Source of the DNA: Heliocybe sulcata
Lineage: Eukaryota; Basidiomycota; Agaricomycetes; Gloeophyllales; Gloeophyllaceae
Direction: 5' to 3'
Assembly: GCA_004369045.1 (NCBI GenBank)
Contig: ML213503.1
Location: forward strand, 1,707,121 to 1,771,120
Length of the DNA: 64,000 bases
The notes beneath the pieces are model-generated. The model was given only the letters and a program-made list of their open reading frames with translations, was not told the origin of the DNA and ran no database searches. The number at the start of each line of letters is the position of its first letter. The stretch's first letter is position 1. Below are positions 1-53,611 of the stretch, piece by piece. Made by a program: the position numbers and the translations under genes.

Positions 1-142
1 CTTGTTGAAGGGTCCCTTAACCTGTTCCTCTTTGGAACTCCCTTCAACAACGTGCAGGTGAGCCCTTAGATATTAGTAGTGGATGTATCTAGTGCTCATG
101 AGTGTATATATTTGCTTTGGAACTCCCTTCAACAACGTGCAG
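1..142. repeat. Short direct repeat with an inverted partner at window start
   Basis: A 27-bp word beginning tttggaactcccttcaac occurs exactly twice, at 31-57 and 116-142. Its core cccttcaacaa is also present as the reverse complement at 3-13, so 3-13 and 40-50 could pair as an 11-bp stem. This could be the edge of a repeat element cut by the window. I cannot assign a family. Confidence 0.5.
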
Positions 143-6437: not shown

Positions 6438-6446
6438 CAGTCCGGA

Positions 6447-32939: not shown

Positions 32940-34894
32940 CTAGTCCCCGGTATGCATACGCCAGACCCAGATGTGGCCTTTGGACCCGACGGCGGTGATG
33001 ACCCTGCCGTCTTGTGAGACTTCGCAAGCTTCGATTACGAGCGCGCCGGCGTCATCCGTGCCCTCCTGAGGTACTACAAGGTCCCAGCAATCCGGGCTGA
33101 AGGCATCCAGCTCAGGGTACGCCACAGCAGCCGCGCTCGTAGTGCGTGGTCTCTGAGCGGAGGTGATCTCGAGGCGCTTCGTCGTTTCCGCGAGGTCGTC
33201 CTCGTGAGGGAACGGAGGCGGCGGACAGGGATCCAAGTTGCAGACGTTGAGAATCCTGATCTTATTTAGTTGAGGGACGAGGACTATGGGGTCGTGCACG
33301 GGGGATTGGTAGACGTGCACGTGTCGCGTGGTCATCGGGAGTTTCAGGACGGAGATTATTTTGAAGGAAGCTGGGGTATAGTCAGCAGCTATCCCATGCA
33401 CAAGACTTCATGGAGGTCAGAGGCCTACCGCTCTCTTGGTAATCCTGATTATTGGCTGTCAATTTCTTGGACGCGGTGTGAGCCGACGCGTGCACTCACC
33501 GACGCACAGCCGCGTTTCACCCTCTGCGCTGCCGCGTCCTCAAACCCCGGGGGAAAGAACCTGTCCACGCCTAGCCAGCGCCACACAGCGAGCGTACCCT
33601 CCGTTTCGTAGGTGGCACTCTCCTTGTCATCCTTGTCGGCGCGCAGTAGGGCGGGCGCGCTGTGCGTTAGCAGGACATCCTGACTTAGCCTGTGGAGGGA
33701 GAGATCAGAGGTGCTGTAAGGGGAGGGGAGGGGGAGGGGAGAGGGTACCAGGTTATGGAGAGGATGCGGGCTTGGTGGAGGAGGCTGGTGCTGAAGAAGG
33801 GCTTGTCTTCTCTGGCGATGCGGTCCCCCTCGAGGGAGGGTATGGGCCAGATTTTGGCGGCGCGGTCCATCTATGCGGGTTTAGCATTACGAAGAAAAGG
33901 TTCGCATGGCGACTTACGCCGCATGTTGCGATAAGTGGTAGGACCGGATGAAAGCTCTGTATAGCCCGGTTAACTGGTTGGGCTTGTTTACGCAGACCAG
34001 GCGCAACTTACAGCGCTCAGGACAGCAGCTGCGTGCCCACCGGAGCGCCCGCCGGCTAGCACGGCAACGCAGCGCCCGATGCCTTCGCCCTCGGGTTCGG
34101 ACATCTGCAGGCCGTAGGCCGCGCCGGCCATGCTGGGGTGCTTGGACGGCGGCCAGTGGGGGTTGTGCGGGTACTGCGCAGGCGGCTGCGTGAGGTCGTA
34201 GATCCTGGTCGTAAAGTCCCTGGACGTGCTGCAGAATATGTACGGGTGCACGGGGTGCACGGCGAGAGAGGTGATGTCCTGTGGTGAGGTCAGCGAGTGG
34301 ATACTAAGTGGATGGGTAATGGCGACTTGCCCCGCCGTGCCCGCGCAGGTAGCCAACGATCTGGCGGATGCGCGCGTCGACTATGTAGAGGAGGCTGCGA
34401 GCGGCGAAGAGGATGATTGCTGTGGGCGCGAGTAAGGAGCCCATGGCCCACGCGACGCAGGTAACCTGCGTGCTGCTCAGTGTATTGTCCTGCAGGCTGT
34501 TCTGTCAGTAGATCGGAGGTGCATAAATTAGTAGGACGTACACCCGGAGGGAGTCTGACGCATAATGGCCTCGCAGAGCCGCTACCTTGCCGAGGCATGA
34601 TATAGATTTTGCCCTTGGCTCCGACTATGCTGGCACCGTACCAGTCCTTGACGATTTGCGCCCACTGTCGGCGTAGTTCAGGCGTATCGAAGCTTCCATC
34701 GCACAAGGTGGAGATGGAGTCGAGTGTCCAGGGAAAGGTCGCGACGGCGGTGAATGCGGACCCAGCAGGGTCATGGGACTAGGATATGTTGAGTGCCGCC
34801 ACGATGGCTTAGGCATGGGACGACGAACAGCTATCTTCTGGGACCGAGAGAACGGTATGGGTGATTCAGTGTGTCTATACCACGGCTCTGGCAT
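32940..34894 (-). CDS. EED/ESC-like WD40 repeat protein (candidate PRC2 subunit)
   Basis: A minus-strand, intron-rich WD40 gene starting near ATG 34894 (MPEPWYRHTESP) and ending HIWVWRMHTGD. Recognisable pieces in order are TAVATFPWTLDSIS, WYGASIVGAKGKIYIMPRQ, DITSLAVHPVHPYIFCSTSRD with FTTRIYDL, CVAVLAGGRSGGHAAAVLS, MDRAAKIWPIPSLEGD, FFSTSLLHQARILSITW, ISVLKLPMTTRHVHVYQSP and ACEVSQDGRVITAVGSKG. The mix of a GGHxxxVLS blade, MDRAAKIW (compare CGMDHxLKLW in EED) and an F-STxxxHxxxI.SxxW blade is that of EED/ESC. EED is the WD40 subunit of Polycomb repressive complex 2 and reads H3K27me3. About ten introns are implied and I did not fix all borders. It is divergent from the epoxide hydrolase gene. 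Confidence 0.6.
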
Positions 34895-35301
34895 CGCGGT
34901 GGTTGACGCTGACGTCGTTTGATTGGGAAGCCGGCGGCGAGGATGAAACCCTAGTGTGGGGTCCCGATCGCACGTGGCTAGAGGAGCAGCAAGGAGTATG
35001 GCCCGTGATGGAGAATGAATGGAACTCTCTTTTCCTCGCTGTCCGTCTCAGCCATCACAAAGCCGACATCTACGGCGACACTTTCCATCAATACCCGAGC
35101 GCTGAGCGCTATCCCCAAACAGCCCCTCCGCGCATGTTCCAAAATATAAGGGGAGAGGTCTCGTCCTTCACCCTCCATCTCGCAGACCGCCTCACCCCCT
35201 TCGTCAACGCCGTCAAGGACGAGCTCCAGTCCCTATCAGACACTATATACAGCGCTGCCGGCACCACTGTCGATACCCAATTGTCCTTTGCGCTTTGGGG
35301 A
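34895..35301. promoter_or_regulatory. Divergent promoter between WD40 gene and epoxide hydrolase
   Basis: About 400 bp. An open frame from 34861 runs in phase into the epoxide hydrolase and would add about 147 unconserved residues, but family members usually begin at the MDHxSYK motif, so I treat this stretch as promoter and leader. A GTG-less N-terminal extension cannot be excluded. Confidence 0.45.
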
Positions 35302-36458
35302 ATGGACCACACCAGCTACAAGGATGTCCGGACGTACCGGGGTATGAACTACCACTACTTCTCGTCGCCTCCTGTCGGGAGCAAACCAACCCTCATGTTT
35401 GTACACGGCTTCCCCTCGACATCGTGGGACTGGCGGCACCAGGTCGCCTACTTTAAGAAAAAGGGTTACGGGCTGATCGTGCCGGACATGTTAGGCTACG
35501 GAGGGACGGACAAGCCGCTCGAGCCGGAACACTATAAGCCTAGTCTCATCTGCCAGGACATGACAAGCATCCTTGACAATGAAGGCGTGGACAAGGTCAT
35601 CGTGATCGGGCATGACTGGTGCGTGGTCTCGTGACACTCTGCGCGTCTGTTCTGACGCGCCCGGGGCATAGGGGCTCAAAGATCGTGTCCCGGCTCGCGA
35701 GCTACTACCCCGAGCGCTTCACTGCGTACGCGTTCCTCGCGGTCGGCTACCAGCCGCCCATGCCGACGTTCGACGTCCACCAGGCGCTGCAAATGACGAA
35801 GCAGCGGCTCGGGTACGAGCTGTACGGGTACTGGATGTTCTTCGCCACAGAGGGCGCAGACAGGATCATCGACAACCACGTACGTTCCCAGCCCCCCATC
35901 TAAAACCCGTCCTCACCGTAGCGCTCGCAGTGGGACTCGTTCTTCTCTCTGCTCTACCCGCACGACCCCACACTCTGGCGGAGCGACATGGCGCCCGTGG
36001 GTTGCTTCAAGGCGTGGCTCCTCGCCGACAAGACCGCGCCGCTACCCTCGTACCTCACTGCCGAAGACAAGGCGACCATCACCGCACTCGTCCGCCCGCC
36101 TGCCGCGGCGCTCAACTGGTACAAGGTCATGACCTCCGGCATCAACGCGCAGGACGACCGCTCCGTCGCGCCGTACCGCTACGCCCTGCCCGCGGACGCG
36201 CCCGTGCTGTTTGTCGGATGCGAGAAGGACTATATCTGCCTCGCAGGCTCGCACAAGGCCGCGACGGAGAAGTGCGCGGGGGAGGGGATGGCGCGGACGG
36301 AGGTGTTTGATGCGGACCACTGGGTGATGCTCAGCCATGCGGAGAAGCTGAACAAGCTGCTGGAGGAGTGGATTGGGGATGCGGCGAAGATGAAGATGAA
36401 GGGGAAGGAGGAGGACGGGGAGGCAGATGGACATGCAGATGGTGCGAGCCGATTATAG
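35302..36458 (+). CDS. Soluble epoxide hydrolase (alpha/beta hydrolase fold)
   Basis: Three exons (35302-35618, 35672-35879, 35931-36458) give 350 residues. The start MDHTSYKDVRTYRG is typical. The oxyanion-hole motif HGFPSTSWDWRHQ lies near residue 38. The nucleophile aspartate is in GHDWGSKIVSRL, completed across intron 1 (cat gac tg/g). The lid contains two tyrosines suited to epoxide activation, for example in LGYELYGYW. The acid is probably the Asp in GCEKDYIC and the base the His in DADHWVMLSHAEKLN. The enzyme hydrolyses epoxides to diols in detoxification or secondary metabolism. The last 25 residues are charged (KMKMKGKEEDGEADG). The 3' end of this gene is repeated three times downstream as fragments, which marks it as the left edge of the duplicated region. 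Confidence 0.92.
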
Positions 36459-36936
36459 ATTCCTATGGCTGACTGGGAACTGGAGGTGGACATTGGATAT
36501 CACCTTATCTAGTGTGTAGGCATACGATATATCCTGCTTTGATCTGTATTGAATAGTTTCCAGTATATACGGGCTATCTGTACTGTAATAACTGTCTGGG
36601 CTACTTTGTGTCGATACCCTGTCGAAACCTTATCCGAAGGTGCAGATCATGTCCGAAACACAGCCACTAGCTGTCCTGATCCCCAGACTGTGGCGCAAGG
36701 GGGCGCTCCTGCTTCGGCCTATCCGAAAATGCGGGCATCAACGTTCCCATTTTCTATGGACGTAGACTGATCTCGCCGCGAGCACCAAGACCCTCGTGCT
36801 TTACAGCCACTTCTCCAAGAACGCGCACTTTATCTCATCACGGCGCGCTGACACGGTGTGAGCTAAGCCGTGCCGGACTGAACCGGACCGTACCCTCAGC
36901 TACTCTCTCCTCTCGCTGAAGACAGCTGTGTATCTT
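36459..36936 (+). promoter_or_regulatory. Spacer upstream of RecQ copy A, built from duplicated pieces
   Basis: This spacer matches the sequence 3' of the epoxide hydrolase fragment at 45.19-45.54 kb over most of 36530-36830. Shared words include gtccgaaacacagccact and agcaccaag. At 36790-36830 it includes the last codons of the alpha/beta hydrolase gene (reverse strand, cf. 45527-45545). The rest of that hydrolase is missing and the sequence joins a leader similar to that of RecQ copy B. It should act as promoter of copy A. Confidence 0.55.
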
Positions 36937-39829
36937 ATGCTGTCTAGGGCTGTTCGCGCGTCGAGGCTCGCAATCCGCAGGGCTGCCGCGTCTACAACCA
37001 CGGTCACCGCATCCAGCAGAGTTGGATGGGCAAGGACATATGCTACGCCCACCAGCGACCACTGGAACAAGGGGGGACAGAAGCATAGAGATGAACAGGG
37101 CCTGGGGGGTTCCTTCCAGCAGCAGAATGGGATGGAGAAGGCACACGAAGTGCTGCGGGAAACCTTTCGCCTCCCTTCGTTCCGGCCGTCTCAAGAAGAG
37201 GTGAGTTCTGCGGGCAAGCTAAGTATATCTCGAGATTCTGACTTCAATGGCAGGTGATAAAGCGGTTGATTGTGGACAATGAAAATGCGCTTGTGCGGTT
37301 TCCAACCGGAGGTATGTCCAACGATTTGCGATTGTGCGTGCAGCGGTGGTGGGTGTTTGACACAGACTCTGCTATCCGCTGCAGGTGGAAAGAATTTGAC
37401 ATATCAAGTACCCGCCTTATGCTTGGATGTAAGCTTCCTTCATATGCCCACAGGAGCCAGGTCTCCGATAGAAGTTTCTCCTTAGGGTCTCACCCTCGTC
37501 ATCTCGCCTCTCCTTCCCCTTATGAGAGAGCAGGTGGAAACTCTTCGCAGTCTCGGGATTAAAGCAGCAAACTTGGATAGCACATTGAACATCGAGGCTT
37601 ACAATCGAGTGAACAGTGAAGTACGCTCTGGAGAGTTGAAGATTCTTTATGTATCGCCTGAAAGGTGAGCTTCTTGGCAGACGTGCAGCAGACCGGACAT
37701 CTCAGTTCGGGCGCGTACATCGCAGGTTAAACAATGAATCATTCATGAACATGATAAAGAGAGTCAAGATCTCCTTACTTGTAGTGGATGAGTCGCACTG
37801 TATTTCACAGGTACGTCGTCAGTTGAACCAGCCGTTGTTCAGTTGAGGATGCTTTGTGTATCATTAGAGGGGTTCCACCTTCCGGCCAGAGTACCTTAAG
37901 ATTGCCCGGTTTGCAGAGGAACAAAACGTGGAACGAGTTCTATGCTTGACGGCAACAGCAAGTAAGGACGTTGCAGACGACATCTGCAAGTCCTTCCGGA
38001 TCGACCCTGCAGCTGGAGCATTCCGAACCCCTGTCTACCGACCAAAGTCGTGCTCTTATCCTTTGACCCCGTTACCTTTTCTAACCTCCGTTTTGACCCG
38101 TACAGCCTGTCGTTCCGAGTAGCTGTCGCCGACGGGATGGGCGACAAAATCGAACAACTGCTTCCTCTCGTGAAGGAGCGAACTGGTCCGGCGATCATCT
38201 ATGCGATGTTCCACCGCCATGTTGAAGAAGCTGCGGAGAAGCTCAGAGAGCATGGCGTAGAAGCGTTAGCCTATCACTCGCGTCTGTCTACCGAGGAACG
38301 AGAACAGGTCCAGAACGACTTCATGCAGAAGCCCGACACTGTCGTCTGCTGCACCATGGCATCTGGTATGGGCATTGACAAGGCCGATATCCGGCTGGTG
38401 GGTTCTTCCAATACATCGTGATGGTGATGGTGAATCGCTGAGTGACTCGATCCTTGTAGGTCGCTCACCTATTCATGCCTAAAACACTCGAGAATTATAG
38501 TCAGGAGGTTGGTCGCGCGGGTCGTGATGGTCTCCCCTCAACGTGCTTGATGTTCCTGTCGGCGCCGGATATATCGGTGCTTGAAGGGTCCGCTAGGGCT
38601 GATACGTGCAGCGAAAAGGATCTGCAGCGCTGGCTGCACGAGGTCGCGACGAAGACGCCAGCGGCGGATGGGACGTTGGATTTCAATTTGTATCAGCAGT
38701 CGAAGCAGTAAGAGTTACACACACTTACATTTGGATTTCTTGTGCTGATGCAGTGATGATTCTAGGTATGACATAAAGGTCCGTATATCTCCAACGCCTG
38801 CGGTCAGCGTTACTCACAAAGGAACGTTAGCCCAACGTTTTGAACTACTTCTATGCTGAGCTCGAGTTGGACCATGGCTACATCAGGGCGGTGACGCCAT
38901 TCTTTTCAGTTTATACTTTGTCGGAAACTACGTCAGAAGGTTGGGAGAAAGTGCTATCAGATACGTCTGATGCTGCCATAGCCATCAGAGAATCGTGGAT
39001 ACCTACGGACGGAGGTCATGAAGTGAGTGGACGGATTGCTCGGAGTAATTGCTTAGGCAGGGTCTTATCATTCGTAGGTTGATGTTGTCGCTGCTGCAAG
39101 TGCACATGGATTGGAACGTGCTGCCCTTGCGAAGAAAATTGGCGATTGGGAGTTCCATGGTGTGTCCACTCTGTTACAACATTTCTCCCGGAAAATGAAG
39201 CGGACCATGGACAGGCTCGATAATCGCGAAAGCATCAAGAGGCAGAAGTGTAAGTCAGACGGCAACGTCGCGTCCTGTCGTTGATGGTATTCGCAGCGCT
39301 ATGCGATCCTGAATCCACTTCCTCCAACGAGCGAGGGAATAGAGGAGCTAGCGAAGAAGATCTACGAGCGCATGCTCGCGCGAGAGGAAGAATCTGTGCG
39401 GAAGCTCCACGAAGTCATCAACTTCGCGACTGCTGACGATTGTAAGGCAACGTGTACAGTATGACAGGGTCGCCTTCTGATGTCTCTGCAGGCCTTGCCC
39501 ACTCACTGTCAACCTATTTCGGAGACGAGGACAATGTTCCGAATGCGGCGTGTGGGACGTGCACGTTCTGCAGGACAGGGAAGGCGGTCGAGTTTACGCC
39601 GACTTTCGTGACAGAACCCGACCCTTCGAAAATCCGAGCAATTCTGGATGTTTGTCCTGAGCGGGATGACCCGCGGTTGCTGGCTCGGATGGCATTTGGA
39701 ATCATGTCGCCCAGGCTGCCGGAGGGCCAGGGGTCGAGGAGACATAAACTGTTTGGGAGCATGAGGAACGTGGATTTCAATTCACTTGTGGACGCATTCG
39801 ATGCGGAGTGCCAAAAGTTAGAACACTAG
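36937..39829 (+). CDS. RecQ-family helicase, copy A, with AFG3-derived mitochondrial presequence
   Basis: Exon 1 (36937-37200) starts MLSRAVRASRLAIRRAAAS, a basic, Ser/Arg-rich presequence, then [16 protein letters not shown], which is nearly the AFG3 N-terminus. At residue 66 the RecQ part begins: MEKAHEVLRETF. About a dozen short introns follow. RecQ motifs are TGGGKNLTYQVPA (Walker A), LLVVDESHCISQ (motif II), CLTATASKDVADDI (III), TGPAIIYAMFHRH (IV), TMASGMGIDKADIR (V) and ENYSQEVGRAGRDG (VI), then a zinc cluster CGTCTFC. RecQ enzymes unwind DNA 3' to 5' in recombination and fork repair. Compared with copies B and C, this copy has Asn for Ser in Walker A, Arg for Trp after motif II (RGSTFRPEY) and Ser for Phe in motif V, so its activity is doubtful. 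It ends KLEH, lacking the basic RGG tail of copy C. The frame is otherwise open with usable splice sites. Confidence 0.85.
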
Positions 39830-40157
39830 CAGGTAGCTACTGTGGTAGTAGTTCCGCCGGCGAAGAAGCGGCCCTGCACGCGAAGCTCCAGCTTCCACTC
39901 TCGAGGTGCACGTGAATCATATGGTAGTCGAGGTTCGAGCAAACGAGCTCGGAGTTGGCGGGGTGTATATATTCTCTCTTGCTGTCTTCAGTGATTAGAG
40001 TCGCATATACGCTGCCAGGTAATAAGTTGCTGCATGATCGATTTAGCCTATTACATCTTGCATGCCTGCGAAGAAGTTTCGGCGCTCGTTCCAGCTGGCA
40101 TCATTAATCCGTATTGACCTCAAGCCCTCACTCACAGCTGCATGTCGCCAAGGCGCG

Positions 40158-41280
40158 GGCTCGCACGGACGAAGGTGTTTAGAAATGCGCACGGCTGGGT
40201 GATGCTCCGCCATGCGGAGAAGCTGGAGAAGTTCCGATTCCCCAAGAATCGGTTAACATAACAGTAGTTTGGACTCTCTCGTTCCTGAGCAACAGGGGTT
40301 ATTTCCATCTATGGCCGTTTCTGTGCTCTTTTCGTCTGAGGATCTCAGGAGCAATATCCATAAACGGACCTCGTCTACAGGGGTTATATCCATTTAAGAA
40401 TCGCCTTCGCTCTATCCGGTCTTGAGCTTGATGTCATATGTCGACGCTCGGTATTTGCTGTACCGCTTGCTGTCGCCGTTCTGACAGAGCCCTAGCTGGT
40501 CTCTTTGCAAGTCGCCACATTACCCACGACCCTTGCGCTTTCATGCACATGTTTAGACGCTCATGTGCACGTTCATTAGTCCGCTTTATCACTTACGATA
40601 TCTACCGCTACTCCAATTGCGGGCGTTATTTGGTTTTTCGTGTCTATGTTCATCGGCGTCCGTGTAGACGGTCGAGCACTCGAGCAGGGCCCGCTGGGTG
40701 CGATATTTTCAGTCATATGCATAAACACGTGGATAGTCTACACTCTATCATGTGCAGCGGTCGAGTATTTACGCGGGCTGCAATACCAGGTATGGGGCAC
40801 ACTACCAGAATCCGGGAAGGCGCACTTTATTTGAGTGATCTCCTGCGGTACAATATAAGCGCTCCCGTCTTTGTTGCAAAGCACTTCTGACTTCATCATG
40901 AATTCGCCTCTGTCATTCCTGATCGATATTCTAACACAACAATGACTCAGAGAAATAATAGCTGTCCATCACATTGAACATCCGGTCTTCACGTGCCACC
41001 GCCGTACGTAAGTGCTCTGAGAGATAACCGGTAACCTCCGGTAGCACAGTTGTAATGGGAAATGAGTTTCAAAATAATATTGAGCGTGGGGGCACACGGT
41101 AAATCATATTATAGTAGGGGGAATCGGGTTTGGCGTGCCGCGCAGCGCCGTATATCCCCCAGAAGTGGGGGCGCGAGGCGGCGAAGATGAAGAAGGGGGA
41201 GGAGGAGGACAGGGAGGCAGACGGACATGCAGATGGGGCGAACCATCTATAGATTTCCTATGGCAGACTGGAGAACATCG
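40158..41280 (+). pseudogene. Epoxide hydrolase 3' fragment, split by an insertion
   Basis: 40158-40233 matches the intact gene around its catalytic His (cggacgaaggtgttt, tgggtgatgctc, catgcggagaagctg; cf. 36290-36358). 41156-41250 matches the last 80 coding bases (gcggcgaagatgaag, gcagacggacatgcagatgg; cf. 36385-36458) and runs on into the former 3' UTR. About 920 bp lie between the halves. The fragment has no start, lid or nucleophile, so it cannot encode an enzyme. Confidence 0.75.
40234..41155. other. Insertion inside the epoxide hydrolase fragment
   Basis: About 920 bp that interrupt an otherwise collinear fragment. The word caggggttat followed by tccat occurs twice (40291-40309 and 40378-40393). 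I see no transposase or convincing terminal repeats, and target-site duplication is unclear. It could be a non-autonomous element or a filler from repair. Confidence 0.45.
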
Positions 41281-41309
41281 GATATCACCTTGTCTAGTGT
41301 AATTAGAGT

Positions 41310-41560
41310 TAGCTGTCCCGATCCCCAGGGGCGCTCCTGCGGCGGCGTACCCACAGACCGAGAATGCGGGTATTCAACGTCCCCTTTATCTTGGGTTACC
41401 TCGCCGGAGCACCAAGACACGCAGGAACCACTCGTGTGGACGTCGACGAGAACGTTCGCGAGGGGCAGGCGAGGATGAGGGCGGAGGGGGCGTAAGTGTC
41501 CGTTTCTGAACCTGGTGGCAGATTGGCGCCATACATACGTCGGATGGGGTCTCACATAGA
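41310..41560 (-). pseudogene. Alpha/beta hydrolase remnant, body deleted
   Basis: 41318-41440 resembles the region 3' of the intact hydrolase (cf. 45377-45510; shared cacagaccgagaatgcggg-like words and agcaccaagacacgcaggaa). 41460-41500 resembles part of its last exon (gaggatgagggcggag; cf. 45755-45775). 41520-41575 resembles its 5' end region (tacgtcgg, agaagca; cf. 46710-46745). The catalytic exons are gone. Confidence 0.6.
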
Positions 41561-41639
41561 AGCGCAGGCTACCAAGTCAGGAAAGGCGACTCTGTTCACA
41601 TATTGGCAGTGTAGGTTGGCCTGGTCGGGCAGCTATAAT

Positions 41640-41790
41640 ATATGTGCAATGGGAAGACGGGCATAATATTATAATTGCCAGTGACGCGACCGCGATCACG
41701 TGCACAGAAGGCAGCCTCAGCACGTGACCAGAAAGTTAAGGCGCATTTTTCACCCAGATGTCCTCAGCCTCTGTCTCGCTGACCACAATT
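41640..41790 (+). promoter_or_regulatory. Copy of the AFG3 promoter in front of RecQ copy B
   Basis: This stretch aligns with the AFG3 upstream region at 46870-46945. Shared words include cgatcacgtg / caatcacgtg (an E-box-like CACGTG in this copy), ggcagcctcagcac / ggccgcctcagcac and gtgac / atgac. It ends at the ATG of copy B, so copy B appears to have inherited AFG3 control as well as its presequence. Confidence 0.65.
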
Positions 41791-44679
41791 ATGCTGTCTA
41801 GGGCCGTTCGCGCGTCGAGGCTCGCAATCCGCAGAGCTGCCGCGTCTACCAGGGTCACCGCGTCCAGCAGAGTGGGATGGGCAAGGACATATGCTACGCC
41901 CACCAGCGACCACTGGAACAAGGGGGGACAGCAGCGCAGAGATGAACAGGGCCTGGGGGGTTCCTTCCAGCAGCACGATGGGATGAAGAAGGCACACGAA
42001 GTGTTGCGAGAAACCTTTGGCCTTCCTTCGTTCCGACTATCTCAAGAAGAAGTAAGATATGCGGGCAAGCTACATATATCTAGAGATGCTGACTTGAATG
42101 GCAGGTGATAAAGCGGTTGCTTGTGGACAATGAGAACGCGCTTGTGTTGTTTCCAACCGGAGGTATGTCCATTGACCTACGATGGTGCGTTCACAGGTGG
42201 TGGGTCTTTGACAAAGACTCCGATATTTGCTGCAGGTGGAAAGAGTTTAACATATCAAATACCGGCCTTATGCTTAGATGTAAGCTTCCTTTATATGTCC
42301 ACAACACCCAGATGTCTTGAAAAAGTCTCTGTTAGGGTCTTACCCTCGTCATCTCGCCTCTCCTTGCCCTTATGAGAGAGCAGGTGGAAACTCTTCGCAG
42401 TCTTGGGATTAAAGCAGCAAACTTGGATAGCACATTGGGTATCGAGGAGTACAATCGAGTGAACAGTGAAGTACGCTCTGGACAGTTGAAGATTCTCTAT
42501 GTATCGCCTGAAAGGTGAGCTCCTTGGCAGACGTGCAGCAGACCGGACATCTCAGGTCAGGCGCGTATATTGCAGGTTAAACAATGAATCATTCATGGAC
42601 ATGATAAAGAGAGTTAAAATCTCCTTACTTGCAGTGGATGAGTCGCACTGTATTTCACAGGTACGTCGTCAGTTGAACCAGCTATTGTCCAGTTGAGGAT
42701 GCTTTGCGTATCGCTAGTGGGGTCCCAGCTTCCGGCCAGAGTACCTCAAGATTGCCCGTTTTGCAGAGGAACAAAACGTGGAACGAGTTCTATGCTTGAC
42801 GGCGACAGCAACTAAGGCCGTTGCAGACGACATCTGCAAGTCCTTCCAGATCGACCCTAATGCTGGGTTATTCCGAACCCCTGTCTACCGACCAAAGTCG
42901 TGCTCTTCTGCTTTGACCTCGTCACCCTTTCTAACCTTCGTTACCTGTACAGCCTGTCGCTCCGAGTAGCTGTCGCCGACAATTTGGACGACAAAATCAA
43001 GCAACTGCTTCCTCTCGTGAAGAAGCGCACTGGTCCGGCGATCATCTATGTAACGCTCCACCGCCATGCTGAAGAAGCTGCGGAGAAGCTCAGAGAGCAT
43101 GGCGTAGAAGCGTTGGTCTATCATGCGGGGCTATCTACGGAGGAACGAGAACAGGTTCAGGACGACTTCATGCAGAAACCCAACGCTGTCGTCTGCTGCA
43201 CCATGGCATTTGGTATGGGCATTGACAAGGCCGATGTCCGGCTTGTGGGTACTTCCGAAACATGGTGATCGTGACGGTGAATCGCTGAGTGACTCGATCC
43301 TTGTAGGTTGCACACTTGTTTATGCCTAAAACACTCGAGAACTACAGCCAGGAGGTTGGTCGCGCGGGTCGTGATGGTCTCCCCTCAGCGTGCTTGATGT
43401 TCCTGTCGGCGCCGGATATACCGGTGCTGGAGGGGTTCGCCAGGGGTGACACGTGCGCTCAAAAAGATCTGCAGCTGTGGCTGCACGAGGTCGCGACGAA
43501 GATTCCCGCGGCTGATGGGACGTTGGATTTCAATTTGTATCAGCAGTCGAAAGAGTAAGAGTTACATGCATTTACAGTATGAGTTTCAAGTGCTGATGCC
43601 GTGACGATCCTAGTTATGATATAAGGGTCCGTATTTCTCCAACACTTGCGGTCAGCGTCACTCACTCACCACAATTTAGATGAACGTTTTGAATTACTTC
43701 TATGCTGAGCTTGAGTTGGACCATGGCTACGTCAGGGCGGTAACGCCATTCTATTCGGTTTATACTTTGTCGGAAAACACATCAGAAGGTTGGGAGAAAG
43801 TGCTATCAGATACGTCTGATGCTGCCATAGCCATCAGAGAATCTTGGGTAGCCAAGAGCGCAGGCCATGAAGTGAGTGGACGGATTGCTCAGTGTAACTG
43901 CTTAGGCCGGATCCTTAGCGTTCGTAGGTTGATGTTGTCGATGCTGCAAGTGCACATGGATTGGAACGTGCTGCCCTTGCGAAGAAGATCGGCGATTGGG
44001 AGTTCGAAGGTGTGTCCATTCTTTTACAGTGGTTCTCCCAGAAAATAAAGTGGACCATGGACAGGCTTGGTAATTGGGAAAGCATCTCGAGTTAGAAGTG
44101 TAAGTCAGATGATAGTGTTTTGTACTCTTGTTGATGGTATTCGCAGCGCTATGCGATCCTGAATCCACTTCCTCAAACGAGCGAGGGAATAGAGGAGTTA
44201 GCGAAGAAGATGTACGAGCGCATGCTCGCGCGAGAGGAAGAAGCTGTGCGAAAGCTCCACGAGGTCATCAAGTTCGCGACTGATGAAGATTGTAAGGCAA
44301 TGTTTTTAGTACCGCAGGGTCGGCTTCTGATGTCTCTTCAGGCCTTGCCCACTCACTGTCAACCTATTTCGGAGACGAGGACAGTGTTCCGAATGCGGCG
44401 TGCGGGACGTGCACGTTCTGCACGACAGGGAAGGCGGTCGAGTTTACGCCGAATTTCGCAACAGAACCCGATCCTTCCAAAATCCGAGCAATTCTGGATG
44501 CTTGTCCTGAGCGGGATGACCCGCGGTTGCTGGCCCGGATGGCATTTGGGATTACGTCGCCCAGGCTGACGGCGGGTAAGTGGTCGAGGAGGCATGAACT
44601 GTTTGGGAGCATGGGGGACGTGCATTTCGATTCCCTTGTGCAGGCATTCGATGCGGAGTGCCAAAGGCTCGAAGATTAG
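41791..44679 (+). CDS. RecQ-family helicase, copy B, with AFG3-derived mitochondrial presequence
   Basis: Starts MLSRAVRASRLAIRRAAAS, then [16 protein letters not shown]; the RecQ part begins at residue 65 (MKKAHEVLRETF). The motifs are canonical: TGGGKSLTYQIPA, LLAVDESHCISQ followed by WGPSFRPEYL, CLTATATKAVADDI, GPAIIYVTLHRHAEEAA, TMAFGMGIDKADVR and ENYSQEVGRAGRDG. A winged-helix region with YFYAELELDHGY and GDWEFEG follows, then RYAILNPLP and the zinc cluster CGTCTFC. About twelve introns of normal size are needed, and the frame can be kept through all of those I followed. It ends RLED, without the RGG-type tail of copy C. Because all motif residues are intact, this is the copy most likely to be an active mitochondrial RecQ. 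It lies downstream of duplicated hydrolase fragments, with its own AFG3-like promoter. Confidence 0.87.
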
Positions 44680-45019
44680 CGTGCCTCTGGCGGTAGCTTC
44701 TCGGACGAAGAAGCGGTTCTGCATGCAACGCTCAAGCTATAACTCTCGAGGTGGATCATATGCTAGAGGAGGTTCGAGCAAACGAGCTCGGAGTTGGCGT
44801 GGTCAATATTCCTGAATGTTCTCTTGCTGTCTTCAGTGATTTAGAGTCGCTGCGCTGCCAGTGTAATGTATTATAATATGTTGCTACTTATGCTTGATCG
44901 ATCTAACCCAGTTCATTCGCATGCCTGCTAAGCTTGCGGCGCTCGTTCTAATGGGTAACGTTCCTTATGATCCCACTTAAGCCCCTCATATGCCGCCAAG
45001 CTAGCGCTGCGACGGAGGA

Positions 45020-45191
45020 TCCGGAGTGCGCGGGCGAAGGAGTTGTTTGATGCGGACAACTGGATGATGCAGGATGATGCGCAGTCATGCGGAGAAGCTG
45101 CACGAGCTGCTGGAGGAGTGGGTGGGGTATGAGGCGAAGATGAGGATGAAGGGGAACGAGGACGGGAATGCAGATGGGACGAGCCGACTAT
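45020..45191 (+). pseudogene. Epoxide hydrolase 3' fragment
   Basis: Matches the intact gene from about 36270 to its stop: gtttgatgcggacaactgg, catgcggagaagctgcac, gagctgctggaggagtgggt, gaggcgaagatgaggatgaa and a C-terminal gacgagccgactatag. It includes a short internal duplication (ggatgatgcaggatgatgcg). The following 3' region matches that of the intact gene, including gcatacaatatatc and ttgctttgatct. No 5' part exists. Confidence 0.78.
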
Positions 45192-45526
45192 AGCTTACCC
45201 ATGACGGACTGGGAACTAGTGGAGATGGGTACCATCTTATCCAGTGTATAGGCATACAATATATCTTGCTTTGATCTTTACTGAATATATTGGTACTGTT
45301 GTAACTGCCTCGGCAACTTTGGGTCGGACCTTATCCCAAGGTGCAGATCCTGTCCGAAACACAGCCACTTGCTGTCGCGATCCCCAAGCTGTGGTCCTGA
45401 CGCGAGAGGGCGCTCCTGCTGCTGCGTACCCACGGACCGAGAATGCGGGCATCTCAACGTTCCCATTATCTCTGGAAGCGGGTTACCTCGCCGCAAGCAC
45501 CAAGACACGCAGGAACCACTCGTGCT
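45192..45526. other. Spacer between epoxide hydrolase fragment and alpha/beta hydrolase
   Basis: This is the least altered copy of the spacer that is also found at 36.46-36.83 kb and, shortened, at 41.25-41.45 kb. No gene inside. It gives the reference order: epoxide hydrolase 3' end, spacer, alpha/beta hydrolase, AFG3. Confidence 0.6.
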
Positions 45527-46648
45527 TCACAGCCACTTCTGCAAGAACGCATACAGCCCCTTCATCTCCTCCCGCTCGTCGAAATCATACGTGTGATTCT
45601 TACCCTCGACTTCCTCGTACACCCATCTGTCCCCTTCGCCTTCGGGATCGCGGGCCTTAAGAGCGGCGATGACGTCGCGGGACTGGGCGGGCTCGACTTT
45701 GTCGTCGATCGAGCCGTGGACTATGTATGTTGGCGGGAGCGACTGGGAGGGGGAGGCGAGGATGAGGGCGGAGATGGCGTAGGTGTCTGCTTCTGGTGGC
45801 GGAGAGTTGGATGGATCGGAGGAGGGGAAGAGGAGGGAGTTGAGGCTGGCGTTTTGGAGCATGTGGTTGTACACTGTGTTGGTGAGTCAAGTGAGAATGA
45901 TGCTACGGCATGAGTTCGGGAGGGACGCACTGGACTGGCGATTCATGTCGGGCATGTTGTTGGTCATGACAGGGGCGCCCGGGTTTAAGTACGGCGCGAC
46001 CTTCTCGTGCGGGATTTTGGGTACGTCCTTCGGCCACTGCGGGGTTGTCCAGAAGGACGTGCGCGAGTCGGTGATGGGGTATATAGCCGTACAGACTTTG
46101 CTAAATGCGATTCAGCTCCACTTATCTCTCATCTAGAGGAATCTGTGGAACGGACATGTCTGCTTTGATATAATAAGCTGCCAGGAGACTCAGCCAGCCA
46201 CCGGCGGAGCTGCCGCACGTCGCGATCCTGGCGGTGTCGATCTTGACGTTCGCGTCCGAGGCGAGCTTGGCGGGGAGGGCATCGCGCACGAAGGCGAGCG
46301 CATCAGCGACGTCGGAGACGATCTCAGGCATGCGGGCTTGCGGGGCGAGGCGGTAGTCCGGCGAGACGAGGACGTGGTTGTATTTTGTCACGCCGTGGAG
46401 GAAGTGCGGGGCGACGCGGCCACGGTAGCCCTGGAGGAGGCCTCCGCCTGGACGAAGAGGATGAAAGGAGCTGCACGACTAGGCAAGGATGGATGCGTAC
46501 CGTGGAACCAGACGAGCACGGGCAGGGGTTTGTCGTGCGCGTCGACGGTGGAGGGCACGTAGACGTCTAGTTCGATGGGGATAGCGTCCTCTCCGAACGT
46601 CTTGAAGACGTATGTTGCGCTGGGCTTCACTGGTACGGTGACGGACAT
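45527..46648 (-). CDS. Alpha/beta hydrolase fold-3 enzyme (arylacetamide deacetylase-like)
   Basis: Four exons (46648-46501, 46447-46156, 46100-45931, 45873-45527) give 318 residues with consistent phases. The start is MSVTVPVKPSATYVFK. The oxyanion motif HGGG is created by joining exon 1 (WFH, G) to exon 2 (GGLLQGYRG). The nucleophile serine is in CGSSAGGWLSLL, the acid is probably the Asp in GSIDDKVEPAQS, and the catalytic His lies in GKNHTYDFDER. The family hydrolyses short acyl esters and is often involved in detoxification or lipid metabolism. The gene is divergent from AFG3, about 410 bp apart. Its 3' and 5' ends, but not its body, recur near RecQ copies A and B, so a segment containing hydrolase plus AFG3 promoter was duplicated and then shortened. 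Confidence 0.88.
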
Positions 46649-47061
46649 GCTTGAGATGGCTCTCTGAACAGGACTTGACAGGAGGTTGGTCAGCGAGCGC
46701 GCCTTATATACGTCGGGTGGGAGATCCTCGCGTAGAAGCACATGGCGTCACGAACATCAAGTCAAGATAAGCGACTTTTTTCACGTATTGGGAGAGCCTT
46801 GTGAAAGCTAGTCAGCGGTAAGTTTGGAAAGAACTGAAGTATTTCGGCAGCTAGCTTGGAAAGGACAGGTATAATTGTCCGAGTGGCGTTGGACGACCGG
46901 TGACGTGACTGCAATCACGTGGACGGGAGAGGCCGCCTCAGCACATGACTAATCCGGCAAGTTCCTCTGCTCCCGCCGGCGCAATAGCGTCAGTCATCCG
47001 AGCCTATACTCTACGCAGAGCTCTTCCTCACATTCCTCTCAACTCGACGACCGTGTATTGT
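46649..47061. promoter_or_regulatory. Divergent promoter of alpha/beta hydrolase and AFG3
   Basis: About 410 bp. It contains caatcacgtggacg near 46912 and cctcagcac near 46936, both kept in the copy before RecQ B. An in-frame ATG at 46945 would add 39 residues to AFG3, but the downstream ATG at 47062 begins a better presequence and corresponds to the start of the duplicated presequence in RecQ A and B. Confidence 0.55.
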
Positions 47062-49613
47062 ATGCTGTCCAGGACCATCCGCTCATCAAGGCTCACAGGC
47101 CGCAGGGTCGCTGCGTCCAGCAGGGTTGGATGGGCAAGGACGTATGCTACGCCTACCAGCGACCACGAACCTAACAAGGAGGTCGAGAAGAAGGACGACA
47201 AGGGCAAGGCGAAGGAGGAGGTAGAGAAGGGTAAAGATGAACAGGGCCGGGTGCAGCTGCCGAAAGGCCTAGAGGGGTTCTTCCAGCAGTACAAGCAGGA
47301 GCAGGATTCTCTGCGAGGGAACAAGTCGTCAGAGGAGGACTCGTCCAGGCAGGAACACCAGAGGCCCCCGCCCCCGCCCCCGCCGCCAGGCGGCAGCAAC
47401 AACCTCAATCCTAATCAGCTTGGGGCGCTCGGGGCGACCGCAGTGGTCATCTACCTCCTGTCAAACTCGGGCAGCACGAGCTCGCGCGAGATCACCTGGC
47501 AGGAGTTCCGGACCGCGTTCCTCGACAAGGGCCTTGTGGAGAGGCTCGTCGTTGTCAACGGACACAAAGTGCGCATAAAGCTGAATGCTAATGCTACGTC
47601 AGCTATCTACCCCGCTGCCCCCCTCGGCGGCGGAGACTTCTACTTCTCGATAGGCAGCGTGGATGCTTTCGAGCGGAAGCTCGACGAGGCGCAGACTGAG
47701 CTTGGAATACCTAGTCACGAGCGGATACCTGTCGCCTACCACGACGAGATCTCCACCGTCGGCACGCTCATGCAGTTCGCGCCTACCATCCTCTTCGCCG
47801 GTTTGCTCTTCTGGATGAGCCGTCGCGCAGGACAGTCGAGCGGGGGCGCGGGCGGGATCTTCAACATCGGCAAGAGCAAGGCAAAGATGTTCAACAAGGA
47901 CACCGACGTGAAGGTCCGCTTCAAGGACGTCGCGGGGATGGACGAGGCGAAGGAGGAGATTATGGAGTTTGTCAAGTTCCTCAAGGAGCCTGCGCGCTAT
48001 GAGAAGCTCGGAGCCAAGATCCCGCGCGGTGCTATCCTTTCTGGTCCACCAGGTACCGGTAAGACCCTGCTTGCCAAGGCGACAGCAGGCGAAGCCTCTG
48101 TACCTTTCCTCTCGGTCTCTGGCTCCGAGTTCGTCGAGATGTTTGTTGGTGTTGGTTCCTCGCGTGTGCGGGATCTGTTCGCCTCTGCCAAGAAGAATGC
48201 ACCATGCATCATCTTCATTGACGAGATCGACGCTATCGGCAAGGCGCGTGGCAAGGGCGGAGGAATTGGCGGGAACGATGAGCGCGAGTCCACGCTCAAC
48301 CAACTCTTGGTGGAGATGGACGGGTTCTCGACGAGCGAGCATATTGTTGTCTTGGCTGGTACGAACAGACCGGACGTGCTGGATCCTGCGCTTATGCGTC
48401 CGGGACGGTTCGACCGGCACATCGCTATCGACAGGCCCGACGTCTCCGGACGCAAGGGCATCTTCGAAGTCCACCTCAAGCCTCTCCGCCTGTCGCCCTC
48501 CCTGCCCGACCTGGACGCGCTCGCGCAGAAGCTAGCCGTGCTCACGCCCGGGTTCTCGGGCGCGGACATTGCGAACGTGTGCAACGAGGCGGCGCTGCAC
48601 GCTGCACGGAGCAGCTCGGAGTATGTCGAGGAGCGGAATTTTGAGACGGCAATTGAGCGGGTGATTGCGGGGCTGGAGAGGAAGAGTCGGGTGTTGAGCA
48701 AGGAGGAGAAGAAGACGGTTGCGTATCATGAGGCGGGGCATGCGATTTGCGGGTGGTTCCTTGAGCATGCGGATCCGTTGCTCAAGGTGAGCATTATACC
48801 GAGGGGTGTCGGGGCTCTGGGCTACGCTCAGGTATGTCTGCTCTGATATGTGCAAGCGCGACTGTATGCTAATTATTCCACAGTACCTTCCACCTGAACG
48901 GTACCTCCTCTCGACGCCACAGATGCGCGATCGGATCTGCATGACGCTAGGCGGGCGTGTGTCTGAGGAAATATTCTTCGGGTACGGGAACATCACGACG
49001 GGCGCGCAGGACGATCTGCAGAAGATCACGCGGATGGCATTCGAGGCGTGTGCGAACTATGGGATGAATGATGTTATTGGGCCGGTGAGTTATGGCGGGA
49101 GGGAGGGGCAGAGGGAGAGTTGGCAGAAGCCGTTCAGTGAGAAGACGGGGGAGATGTTGGATAGTGAGGTTCGGAAGATGATTACGTGAGTACCAGGTTC
49201 GAGAGCGGGGTGGGGCATGAGTGACTGATTTGGGGATGTTAATAGGGACTGTCATAAACGGACGACTGAGCTCTTAACGGAGCACAAGACGGACGTTGAG
49301 AAGGTCGCGAAGTTGCTCTTGGAGAAGGAGGTCATTACACGGTACCAAGTCTTCTCTCACCTCCGAATGCATAAGACTAAACTGGTTAATTGCACATAGT
49401 GAGGACATGATCAACCTGCTGGGCAAGCGGCCCTTTAAAGGCCGGGGAGACGACATGGACAAGTGGCTGGACGACCATCCGCCGAGCGAGAAGCAAGCAC
49501 CGCGGCCCTTCCCTGAGGGACCTGCTCACGAGGAGATTGATAGACCGCCCACGCCCGCGCCGCTTGCGACGGCGTCGCGGGTGACGAGTGTGGAGGAATT
49601 CTTCAGGCGGTAG
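47062..49613 (+). CDS. AFG3: Mitochondrial m-AAA protease (AFG3/YTA10 type)
   Basis: Four exons (47062-48831, 48884-49185, 49246-49341, 49400-49613) give 793 residues. The presequence is [19 protein letters not shown], followed by [13 protein letters not shown] charged linker and polyproline run precede a first membrane segment ([15 protein letters not shown]). An FtsH extracellular-type domain follows, then a second membrane segment ([16 protein letters not shown]). The AAA domain has [24 protein letters not shown] and RPGRFDRHI. The M41 protease domain has HEAGH ([12 protein letters not shown]) and a third zinc ligand in AQDDLQKIT. The enzyme sits in the inner membrane facing the matrix and degrades misfolded membrane proteins and matures MrpL32. 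It is the donor of the presequence found on RecQ A and B. All family motifs are intact. Confidence 0.95.
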
Positions 49614-49950: not shown

Positions 49951-50583
49951 TCATTCGTCAGACTCTTCCGATGGTGGTGGTTGCGGCTTCTGCTTGAAGA
50001 ATCGTTTCCGCTTCTCCTCTGGCGACTCGTTCGGGTTGCGCCCTGCGAGATTTTGTCCAGAGTAGTCGAACACACCGACCGCCCCGCCGAGGAGTGCACA
50101 AGATGCGACGGCCAGTGGTAGGGACCCGCCTGGGCATCCACGGCACCTGATGAGCTTCGCAGACGCAGGAGGCAGAACTTTGGGACTCACGTCGGATCCC
50201 TGCTAAGAACCCAGCCGCACATCCGCCCGCAACGCCGTTTATAGGATCGTCCCTCTGGCGTTGGTTTCCTACCACGGCTTCGGTGAAGGCGAACGCCGCA
50301 CCCATAGCGCCTTTACAGCACACGTAAACCGTCAAGCCCTCATCCAAAGCGTGGTTCTAGACGCACCAAACATCCCGATCGTCCCGCCATATTTTGTGAG
50401 GATACCAGCAGGGCCCCGGTTATGTGTGCTCAGGGCGTTCTGTACAGTGGCTACGAAAGCGCCGACGAATGTTGCCTGGAGGCCGACCTTGGCGGCATAC
50501 TGGAGTGAGGGCTTGGGGTCATACGGAACGGTGCCCGCTGGAACGAGCGCCGCCGGAGGGTAGTTCATCGACGCGGTATTCAT
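49951..50583 (-). CDS. Tim17/22/23-family protein, NDUFA11-like (B14.7) complex I subunit
   Basis: Three exons (50583-50367, 50310-50191, 50129-49951) give 171 residues. The fold is four small hydrophobic, Gly/Ala-rich segments typical of the Tim17 family: AAKVGLQATFVGAFVATVQN, GGTIGMFGAMGAAFAFTEA (joined by intron 1), DPINGVAGGCAAGFLAGIRR and LPLAVASCALLGGAVGVFDY. The start is MNTASMNYPPAALVPAG. The C-terminus is charged and Pro-rich (KRKRFFKQKPQPPPSEE). This size and the V.Q.A / DPIN..AGG.AAG pattern fit the accessory subunit NDUFA11 (fungal 21.3-kDa/B14.7 subunit) better than a TIM23 channel protein. It would sit in the mitochondrial inner membrane. It is downstream of RecQ copy C on the same strand. 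Confidence 0.72.
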
Positions 50584-50789: not shown

Positions 50790-53611
50790 TCATGTATATT
50801 TACCCCGCCAACCCCGAGCTCGTTTGCTCGAACCTCCTCTACCATATGATCCGCCTCGAGAGTTATAGCTCGAGCTTTGCGTGTAGGACCGCTTCTTCGT
50901 CGGAGGAGCTACTGCCACAGTGGCCCGCTGGTATCCTGCCTTTTTGCACTCCACATCGAAGGCCTTCACGAGCGCATCGAAATCCACATCCCCCATGCTC
51001 CCAAACAGATCATGGCTCGTCGACCATTTGCCCACCGTCAGCCTGGGCGACGTGATCCCAAATGCCATCCGAGCCAGTAACCGCGGATCGTCTCGGTCAG
51101 GACACGCATCCAGAATAGCTCGGATTTTTCGAGGGTCGGGAATCGTCAAGACAGTCGGCGTAAACTCGACCGCCTCCGCTGTCATGCAGAATGTGCAAGT
51201 TCCGCACATCGCATTCGGAACACTCTCCGCGTCTCCGAAGTAGGTTGACAGTGTGTACGCAAGGCCTGAGGAGACATGAGAAACCGGCCATATCATAATG
51301 AATAGAGAGCTTACAATCATCATCTGTCGCGAACTTGATTACTTGGCGAAGCTTCTGGACAGATTCTTCCTCTCGTGCGACCATGCGGTTGTACATCTTC
51401 TTCGCTAGCTCCTCTATTGCCGCGCTTGTTCGAGGAAGTGGGTTCAGGACCGTATAGCGCTTCCAATATCATCAATAAGGGAACGCGAGATTGATGTCTG
51501 ACTTACGCTTCTAACTTGAGATGCTTTGCTAGTTACCGAGCCTGACCGTGGTCCACTTCATTTTCTGAGAGAACCGCTGTAAAAGAAAGACACACCATCG
51601 AACTCCCAATCGCTGATCTTCTTCGCAAGGGCAGCACGTTCCAATCCATGTTTACTTGCAGCGTTGACAACATCAACCTACCAATGGTAAGGATCCGGCC
51701 TAATCAATTACTCCGAATAATCCGTCCACTTACTTCATGACCTCCGCTCTTGGGTATCCAAGAGCCTCTGATGGCCATGGCAGCATCAGACGTATCTGAC
51801 AGCACTTTTTGCCAACCCGTTGAGCTACGTTGCGACAAGCTATAAACCGCATAGAATGGCGTCACGGCCCTGATGTAGCCATGATCCAACTCAAGCTCAG
51901 CATAGCACAGATTCAAAACATTCGACTAAAACGTGCTTTGTGAGTGACACTGACTCCAGGGAAAGGAGAAAATACGGACCCGCATATCATACCTGTGATT
52001 GCCCCGGTGTCAGCACAAGAAACTCCAACCCATAGTGTAAATAACGCTTACTGCTTCGACTGTTGATACAGATTGAAATCCAACGTCCCGTCGGCCGAAG
52101 GCGTCTTCGTGGCAACCTCGTGCACCCACAGCTGCAGATCCTTTTCACCACAAGTATCACCCCTGGCAAACCCCTCCAGCACCGGTATATCCGGAGCCGA
52201 TAGGAGCATCAAGCAGGTCGAGGGAAGACCATCACGGCCCGCGCGACCCACTTCCTGGCTGTAGTTCTCGAGCGTTTTGGGCATGAATAAGTGTGCAACC
52301 TAGAAGGATCGAGTTGCTCAGCGATCACTGTCGCAATTACGACGTTTTGGAGGTACGCACGAGCCGGACGTTGGCTTTGTCAATGCCCATACCAAATGCG
52401 ATGGTGCAACAGACGACAGCATCGGGCTTCTGCATGAAGTCGTTCTGAACTTGTTCTCGCTGCTGGGTAGGCAGACCCGCGTGATAGACCAACGTTTCTG
52501 TGCCATGCCGTCGGAGCTTCTCCGCGGCTTCTTCAGCATGGCGTTGGAGGGTCACGTAGATGATCGCCGGACCAGTGCGCTCCTTCACGAGAGGAAGCAG
52601 CTGCTTGATTTTGGCGTCCATACTATCGGCAACAGCTACTCGGAAAGACAGACTGCAAGACGGAAGTCAGACAGGGTGACAAGAGTCAAAGGAGAAGAAC
52701 ACGACTTTGGTCGGTAGACGGGGGTTCGGAATACTCCAGCTATGGGGTCGATCAGGAAGGACTTGCAGATGTCGTCCGCGACGCCCTTGGTCGCCGTTGC
52801 CGTCAAGCATAGAACTCGTTCAACGTCTTGTTCCTCCGCAAACCGGGCAATCTTTAGGTACTCTGGCCGGAAGCTGGCGCCCCACTGAAGATACGCTAAG
52901 CACACTGGACAACTGCTGAATCAAGTGACGACGCACTTGCGAAATACAGTGCGATTCATCTACTGCAAGCAACGAGATTTTGACTCTGGTCATCATGTCA
53001 ATAAAAGACTCATTGTTTAACCTGCGACATACACCCGTGAGCTGAGTTGTCCAGTCTGCTGCACGTCTGCCAAGGAGCTCACCTTTCAGGCGCTACATAG
53101 AGAATCTTCAACGCTCCAGAGAGTACTTCATTTTTCACCCATGCAGTAGTCTCCGCATTCAGTGTGCTATCCAAGTTTGCTGCTTTTACCCCGCGACTGC
53201 GAAGAGCTTCCACTTGGTCTCTCATAAGGGCAATGAGAGGCGAGATGACGAGGGTGAGACCCTAGACAGAGACTTCTATTCAGACGTCTGGTTGCTGTGA
53301 ACGTGTAAAAGGAAGCTTACGTCCAAGCATAAGGCCGGCACTTGATACGTTAAACTCTTTCCACCTGCAGCGAATAGCAGACTCTTGTCAAGACCCACCC
53401 CCAGTGCACGCACAATGGCAGACCATTGGACGTACCTCCGGTTGGAAACAAAACAAGCGCGTTTTCATTGTCCACAATTAATCGCTTTATTACCTGCCAC
53501 TCAAGTCAGAATCTCTAGACATAGCTTGCCCGGAGAGCGCACTTCTTCTTGAGACAGTCGGAACGAAGGAAAGCCAAAAGTTTCCCGCAACACTTCGTGA
53601 GCCTTCTCCAT
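50790..53611 (-). CDS. RecQ-family helicase, copy C (no presequence; probable progenitor)
   Basis: Starts at ATG 53611 with MEKAHEVLRETFGFPSF, the same residues that are internal in copies A and B. The motifs are TGGGKSLTYQVPA, LLAVDESHCISQ then WGASFRPEYL, CLTATATKGVADDI, GPAIIYVTLQRHAEEAA, TIAFGMGIDKANVR and ENYSQEVGRAGRDG. Between the helicase core and the zinc cluster, an intron of about 54 nt joins GDWEFDG to SVTSKASQVRS and RYTVLNPLP. The zinc cluster is CGTCTFC. A basic Gly/Arg tail (YNSRGGSYGRGGSSKRARG) ends the protein and is absent from A and B. No AFG3-like sequence is seen upstream, so this copy should be nuclear. About twelve introns. It lies inverted relative to A and B. It could be a RecQ1- or Sgs1-related enzyme, but no HRDC domain is visible. 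Confidence 0.88.

Follow-up and report, generated by a model that had tools for sequence, protein, structure and literature searches.

RecQ helicase genes of Heliocybe sulcata joined to the 5' end of a neighbouring AFG3-type protease gene

Introduction

Nuclear genes of plants may carry mitochondrial presequences copied from other genes; in the excerpted text of PMC2631504, rice rps11-1 has its presequence from atp2, Arabidopsis sdh3 from hsp70 and carrot rps10 from hsp22. Here we describe a fungal locus of related kind, in a 64,000-nucleotide (64-kb) stretch of Heliocybe sulcata DNA (contig ML213503.1, positions 1,707,121 to 1,771,120 of the forward strand; hereafter the window, with positions counted from its first letter). 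The window holds three RecQ helicase genes (RecQ A, B and C), and an earlier note on this DNA had proposed that two of them, A and B, were formed by joining the 5' end of the nearby AFG3 gene, coding for an m-AAA protease, to the start region of RecQ.

A RecQ protein is found in human mitochondria, where RECQL4 has a mitochondrial localisation signal and is linked to the upkeep of mitochondrial DNA (mtDNA) (excerpts of PMC8701316 and PMC4463680). In yeast, the mtDNA helicases are Pif1, Hmi1 and Irc3; according to the 2016 paper that names them, mitochondrial targeting had not been demonstrated for any RecQ paralogue of yeast (PMC4872236). The earlier note had named Pif1 and Hmi1 as the fungal mtDNA helicases; Irc3 is to be added to that list. 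It had also regarded a RecQ sent to mitochondria by a borrowed presequence as new, a claim to be narrowed by RECQL4, since RecQ in mitochondria as such is already known. Multi-copy RecQ families have been described from subtelomeric regions of fungi (excerpts of PMC7473861 and PMC10817607), and the accessible portion of PMC6981420 mentions RecQ solely in a bacterial pathway. Among the open-licence literature matches listed, none deals with a RecQ whose presequence was taken from another gene, or with a RecQ in fungal mitochondria. A copied presequence and a mitochondrial RecQ are each known; new here would be the combination.

Results

RecQ A and B begin like AFG3

Self-comparison of the window revealed a 64-base block common to A (36999-37062), B (41850-41913) and AFG3 (47103-47166), with an identity to AFG3 of 89.1% for A (E 1.8e-16) and 90.6% for B (E 4.2e-18). 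The likeness of both genes to AFG3 starts at the start codon. Over the initial 61 bases A and AFG3 are 72% identical in ungapped alignment, and a 41-base block (A 37065-37105, AFG3 47211-47251) is 78% identical. The AFG3-like beginnings of A and B were found at the positions given for them in the earlier note, and the three 5' ends proved homologous at the nucleotide level, with the break located just before the RecQ ATG. Homology to C begins at 37129 in A and 41980 in B, opposite 53614, which is 3 bases 5' of the RecQ ATG; judged by this alignment, the RecQ-side break is therefore in frame and only a few bases away from the start codon of RecQ. In agreement with the earlier note, the RecQ methionine has residue number 66 in A and 65 in B.

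By eye, the likeness runs through the residues FQQ (AFG3 position ~47289). A local alignment with other penalties placed the linker in another register and ended at 37101/47205. Because of this earlier stop, the AFG3-side end of the homology is uncertain and would lie between 47205 and 47289. The earlier description, of a likeness that passes DEQG and FQQ and stops near the RecQ methionine, thus stands for the RecQ side of the break and is uncertain for the AFG3 side. Similarly, C lacks an AFG3-like 5' end, as had been said, and its start at exactly the RecQ methionine is a gene-model choice: since the 41 codons before the modelled start of C are free of stops in its frame, with no methionine in them, a spliced upstream exon may exist. 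A short arginine-containing sequence, MRASGTAGRL, with a possible donor was noted by eye 5' of C (53612-53880, minus strand) and could splice to the C frame. From these alignments, a fusion of AFG3 to RecQ in the DNA is nearly certain.

The join lies in a larger copied unit

The AFG3 gene model was found by Pfam search to contain FtsH_ext, AAA and Peptidase_M41 domains. Against solved structures it matched AFG3L2 (6nyy, E 1.5e-205) far ahead of YME1 (6az0, E 2e-109), and by sequence the donor is an m-AAA protease closer to AFG3L2 than to YME1.

The join sits in a copied unit of ~4.85 kb composed of hydrolase-gene pieces, the AFG3 5' end, an inverted RecQ copy and a 5' piece of the Tim17-family-like gene next to C. 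Upstream of A, 36600-36842 matches 45313-45574, and upstream of B, 41311-41436 matches 45387-45524; the B side also has a remnant of the second hydrolase gene (41437-41508, 78% identical to 45724-45795). The promoter region of B aligns with the AFG3 promoter in two parts (41526-41609 with 46699-46794, and 41601-41790 with 46840-47034), the score of the latter being reached by 0 of 200 shuffles. Upstream of A, no likeness to the AFG3 promoter beyond chance was detected (183 of 200 shuffles reached the score), nor a clear likeness to the region upstream of B (19 of 200). The hexamer CACGTG is present within the aligned parts of the B promoter (41697-41702) and the AFG3 promoter (46916-46921).

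Downstream of both A and B, the RecQ 3' flank is followed by a Tim17-family-like piece, which ends at the equivalent of 50487 behind A and 50488 behind B, and then by the 3' end of the first hydrolase gene. Both units have both junctions in common (J1, from AFG3-like to RecQ sequence, and J2, at the end of the Tim17-family-like piece), and because both recur in both units the arrangement would, as read from the sequence, be the product of one rearrangement, an inverted and copied insertion, followed by tandem duplication. The longer copy of the first hydrolase gene is located to the left of A, and AFG3, the Tim17-family-like gene and C are to the right of B. AFG3 is regarded as the donor to RecQ because pieces of its neighbours and, in B, its promoter were copied, while longer copies of the neighbours remain beside AFG3 and C. 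The proposal that the AFG3 5' end was joined to RecQ is well supported, with pieces of the AFG3 upstream neighbours, and in B the promoter too, accompanying it. Template switching would be the simplest mechanism for the rearrangement.

Synonymous distance over RecQ was 0.20 between A and B and 0.39-0.41 from these to C; over 58 presequence codons, the distance of A and B to AFG3 was 0.62-0.66. As the presequence and RecQ-to-C distances were not significantly different (18 of 42 versus 146 of 469 sites, p 0.12), a single event fits.

RecQ family membership and helicase motifs

Gene models of RecQ A, B and C were built manually on splice sites, selected by eye, that are conserved among the three copies. 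The 14 exons of each model are free of stops and separated by 13 introns of 47-73 bases at common positions. An interruption of B by a TAG near 44095 was considered and rejected, as the TAG falls in an intron whose position is common to the models of A, B and C. All three proteins match TIGR00614 (B with 356.1 bits versus a cut-off of 219.8; A and C at E <= 0.001), and DEAD, Helicase_C and RecQ_Zn_bind were above the Pfam cut-offs in each; by these domains A, B and C are all RecQ proteins. Assignment to the RECQ4/Hrq1 type, considered on account of the mitochondrial RECQL4 of humans, was not supported, as the RECQ4 structure 5lst ranked below bacterial RecQ, RECQ5, RECQ1, BLM and most WRN chains and was last of 37 for A. 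For motif analysis, the RecQ motifs were compared with five solved RecQs in an alignment. B and C were found to retain GKS, DESH (for DEAH), SQWG, YHAGL, AFGMGID and GRAGRDG.

Comparison of the C-terminal 305 residues of B to solved structures by sequence search yielded nothing below E 0.27, and hence no sign of a C-terminus of RECQ4 type. With regard to a subtelomeric location, no two-unit TTAGGG repeat was found in the 64-kb window. Viral contigs searched for relatives gave 3 pattern matches, of which 0 were confirmed, and phage records searched with the AFG3 protein gave 174 matches that were uninformative.

Presequence and C-terminal tail

The N-termini of A, B and AFG3 were analyzed for presequence features by a rule that combined an arginine-rich, acid-free N-terminus with an R-x-(F/Y/L)↓(S/A) site. 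By this approach, the presequence N-terminus was found to be arginine-rich and acid-free, with the first acidic residue at position 41 in A, 40 in B and 34 in AFG3 and with 7-8 basic residues before it in the three proteins (7 in A, 8 in B). The sequence RTYAT, with an RTY↓A site, is present in A, B and AFG3, and C has none of the presequence features. Import of A and B into mitochondria is likely, based on their descent from AFG3 and these features.

At the opposite end, A and B stop at a TAG where C has CAG and continues into a tail that is basic and contains KKR and KRAR, which would be a nuclear-type signal, similar to a nuclear localisation signal (NLS). The DNA beyond the B stop is 90% alike to the C tail over 153 bases, the B tail being in another frame. 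Hidden translation of this DNA in A and B was rejected, as A-B changes (15 nonsynonymous in 76.9 sites versus 4 synonymous in 28.1) were not mainly synonymous. The nonsynonymous rate of the tail DNA exceeded that of the preceding exon (p 0.004), the contrast between types of change was not significant (p 0.34), and no sign of constraint was detected in the tail DNA of A and B. A move to another compartment would be in keeping with both the gained mitochondrial signal and the lost nuclear-type tail. In B, a GTAAGT donor and a GGTAG acceptor were seen by eye at 44576-44696; splicing between them would remove the TAG and bring the basic tail back into the reading frame.

Divergence and selection

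A and B are identical at 1941 of 2133 exon sites (91.0%), with a single gap of 3 bases, and at 630 of 753 intron sites (83.7%). Since the A-B split, omega was 0.44 for A (bootstrap 0.28-0.67) and 0.29 for B (0.17-0.46), lower than neutral on both branches (binomial p 1e-4 for A and 6e-7 for B). A and B have evolved under purifying selection. In runs of neutral substitution, 162 of 5000 (A) and 453 of 5000 (B) remained free of stops; the 103 (A) and 77 (B) changes used in these runs were the branch-assigned RecQ changes with 10 added for the presequence, a slight overcount. Amino-acid changes specific to A numbered 43, versus 22 in B. Within the presequence, A and B differ by 5 nonsynonymous changes in 143 sites, compared to 25 expected at the RecQ synonymous rate. 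Constraint was significant when the presequences of A and B were compared to AFG3 (p 0.006 and 0.003), and may act in AFG3 alone.

Features of the window

The window has a GC content of 0.52 and intron-rich genes; gene content and intron length are as expected of a fungus and probably of a basidiomycete. The features discussed above are listed in Table 1, including the Tim17-family-like gene, which scores 28.3 bits, under the Pfam cut-off of 32.7. Elsewhere in the window, two adjoining long frames (4668-10691, minus strand) with a PIF1 domain and with Helitron_like_N and DUF6570, respectively, are probably a Helitron transposon. Upstream of C, 54464-56050 (minus strand) encodes ferric reductase, FAD-binding and NAD-binding domains, as in a ferric reductase or NADPH-oxidase-like gene. 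An 84-base stretch occurs twice, with 82% identity, at 62889-63076, and an identical 28-base direct repeat is found at the left end of the window (30-57 and 115-142).

Table 1. Positions of the RecQ, AFG3 and neighbouring features in the window.
Feature	Position	Strand	Description and basis
RecQ copy A	36937..39829	+	14 exons, 711 aa; gene model and domains; helicase motifs partly lost
RecQ copy B	41791..44679	+	14 exons, 710 aa; gene model and domains; checked motifs retained
RecQ copy C	50790..53611	-	14 exons, 692 aa; without presequence; basic C-terminal tail
AFG3-derived 5' coding segment of A	36937..37131	+	65 codons, presequence and linker
AFG3-derived 5' coding segment of B	41791..41982	+	64 codons
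B promoter region, copy of AFG3 promoter (46699-47034)	41526..41790	+	Alignment and shuffles
m-AAA protease donor (AFG3/Yta10 type)	47062..49613	+	4 exons, 793 aa
Junction J1, AFG3-like to RecQ homology	A 37125..37131; B 41976-41982	+	Self-comparison, alignment
Tim17-family-like 5' piece behind A (matches 50552-50487), J2 at its end	40080..40153	+	0/1000 shuffles
Tim17-family-like 5' piece behind B (matches 50553-50488), J2 at its end	44936..45000	+	0/1000 shuffles
3' piece of the 34813-36458 alpha/beta-hydrolase gene, behind A	40157..40231	+	Self-comparison, alignment
3' end of the 34813-36458 alpha/beta-hydrolase gene and spacer after it, behind B	45036..45550	+	72% identical to 36296-36824
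Longer alpha/beta-hydrolase copy (first hydrolase gene), epoxide-hydrolase-like by eye	34813..36458	+	Abhydrolase_1 4.8e-14, for 34813-35631 only
Second hydrolase gene, between B and AFG3	45530..46747	-	Abhydrolase_3 6.1e-14 and Peptidase_S9 5.4e-5, on two exons
Tim17-family-like gene, between AFG3 and C	49961..50568	-	Tim17 E 2.3e-6; start by eye

Discussion

On balance we favor the reading that one rearrangement gave rise to a RecQ gene with AFG3 promoter and presequence, which was then duplicated, with B now a mitochondrial helicase and A decayed. The ancestral order would have been alpha/beta hydrolase, second hydrolase (minus strand), AFG3 (plus), Tim17-family-like gene (minus) and RecQ (minus). 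During replication, a template switch would have copied the AFG3 promoter and ~50-76 initial codons and moved to the opposite strand a few bases 5' of the RecQ ATG. Copying would then have continued through RecQ and the flank behind it, into the Tim17-family-like gene, before going back to the first hydrolase gene at its 3' end. The result would be a RecQ gene headed by an AFG3 promoter and a mitochondrial presequence, from which A and B would have arisen by tandem duplication. The B precursor would enter mitochondria through the presequence pathway, be cleaved behind RTY, and act as an ATP-driven 3'-5' helicase on mtDNA; A would have undergone decay of its helicase motifs and loss of the AFG3 promoter; and C would stay the untargeted form, probably nuclear. 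Template switching, expression, import, cleavage and activity are steps that we infer, and a mitochondrial function of B is plausible from its sequence.

Several findings weigh against this reading. A has four changed motifs (GKS to GKN, SQWG to SQRG, YHAGL to YHSRL and AFGMGID to ASGMGID), whereas the five aligned solved RecQs have S, W, AG and F there; A thus probably lacks helicase activity, though its frame is kept. The earlier note had missed that A has lost both motif residues and the AFG3 promoter, so that a functional mitochondrial helicase is best supported for B only. Omega did not differ significantly between A and B (p 0.20), and the case for relaxed selection on A therefore comes from the identity of the changed residues and not from their rate of change. 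As a test, the crude presequence rule is weak, passed by 16 of 442 methionine-started frames of the window, A and B included, and because it is this lax the descent from AFG3 carries the presequence argument. Constraint between A and B within the presequence alone was not significant (p 0.08). In addition, Met65/66 is a possible second start that would yield an untargeted product.

Some of these points also favor the alternative that the fusion has no mitochondrial role, A and B being duplicates near to loss, silent at the start that came from AFG3, or translated with the RecQ methionine as first residue into a product outside mitochondria. Such a state would agree with the missing motif residues and promoter of A, the missing C tail with its unconstrained DNA in both copies, and the non-significant presequence constraint. 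It is unlikely given that omega is well below 1 on both branches, that ~710 codons in each gene are without stop or frameshift, that nonsynonymous presequence changes are few relative to the RecQ synonymous rate, and that B retains promoter and motifs. Dual targeting, in which B (and A) would enter mitochondria when translated from the first ATG and go elsewhere from Met65/66, so that a compartment was added and the old one kept, is improbable as judged from the sequence: the RecQ methionine is conserved in A, B and C, as a second start requires, but A and B end before the basic NLS-like tail that C has.

Homology by itself has no direction; an origin of the presequence in RecQ with later transfer to AFG3 is nevertheless scarcely credible, in that B has the AFG3 promoter and pieces of the AFG3 upstream neighbours, C is without such a 5' end, and an m-AAA protease requires a presequence. 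An assembly artefact, to which tandem repeats are prone, is just as hard to credit when ~9% of exon sites and ~16% of intron sites distinguish A from B, their synonymous distance to C is 0.4, and both junctions occur twice in diverged form.

Returning to the favored reading of a rearranged and duplicated gene, we tentatively propose a more specific form, in which re-addressing occurred in one step, by a single template switch, and the basic tail was lost later, B is active as the first fungal mitochondrial RecQ, and its sister A, dead as a helicase, is retained for another, perhaps structural, role in the same compartment. The locus provides a readable case of a protein changing compartment, with donor, recipient, both junctions and an untargeted sister within 20 kb. 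Should B function in mitochondria, a RecQ would join the maintenance of fungal mtDNA, and the locus would be a natural test of the effect of RecQ on mtDNA; if B is not imported, it is an example of a complete-looking presequence fusion that fails.

Like the plant genes, A and B have a presequence copied from an unrelated gene for a mitochondrial protein onto another coding sequence; the plant recipients were genes from the mitochondrial genome that needed a way to return (excerpt of PMC2631504), whereas here the recipient is a helicase paralogue with an unsignalled sister, the new address came from a neighbour, and both junctions can still be read. The signal of RECQL4 is in its own N-terminal region, and the protein is also nuclear (excerpts of PMC8701316 and PMC4463680), unlike A and B, whose signal was copied from AFG3; RECQ4 was also among the weaker solved RecQ matches by sequence. 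The subtelomeric RecQ families of fungi are multi-copy, as are A, B and C; these families lie near chromosome ends and, in the excerpt of PMC7473861, have the helicase core without further domain, whereas A, B and C include RecQ_Zn_bind and the window has no tandem TTAGGG. Finally, of the fungal mtDNA helicases in the excerpted account (PMC4872236), namely Pif1, Hmi1 and Irc3, none is a RecQ, whereas B would be one.

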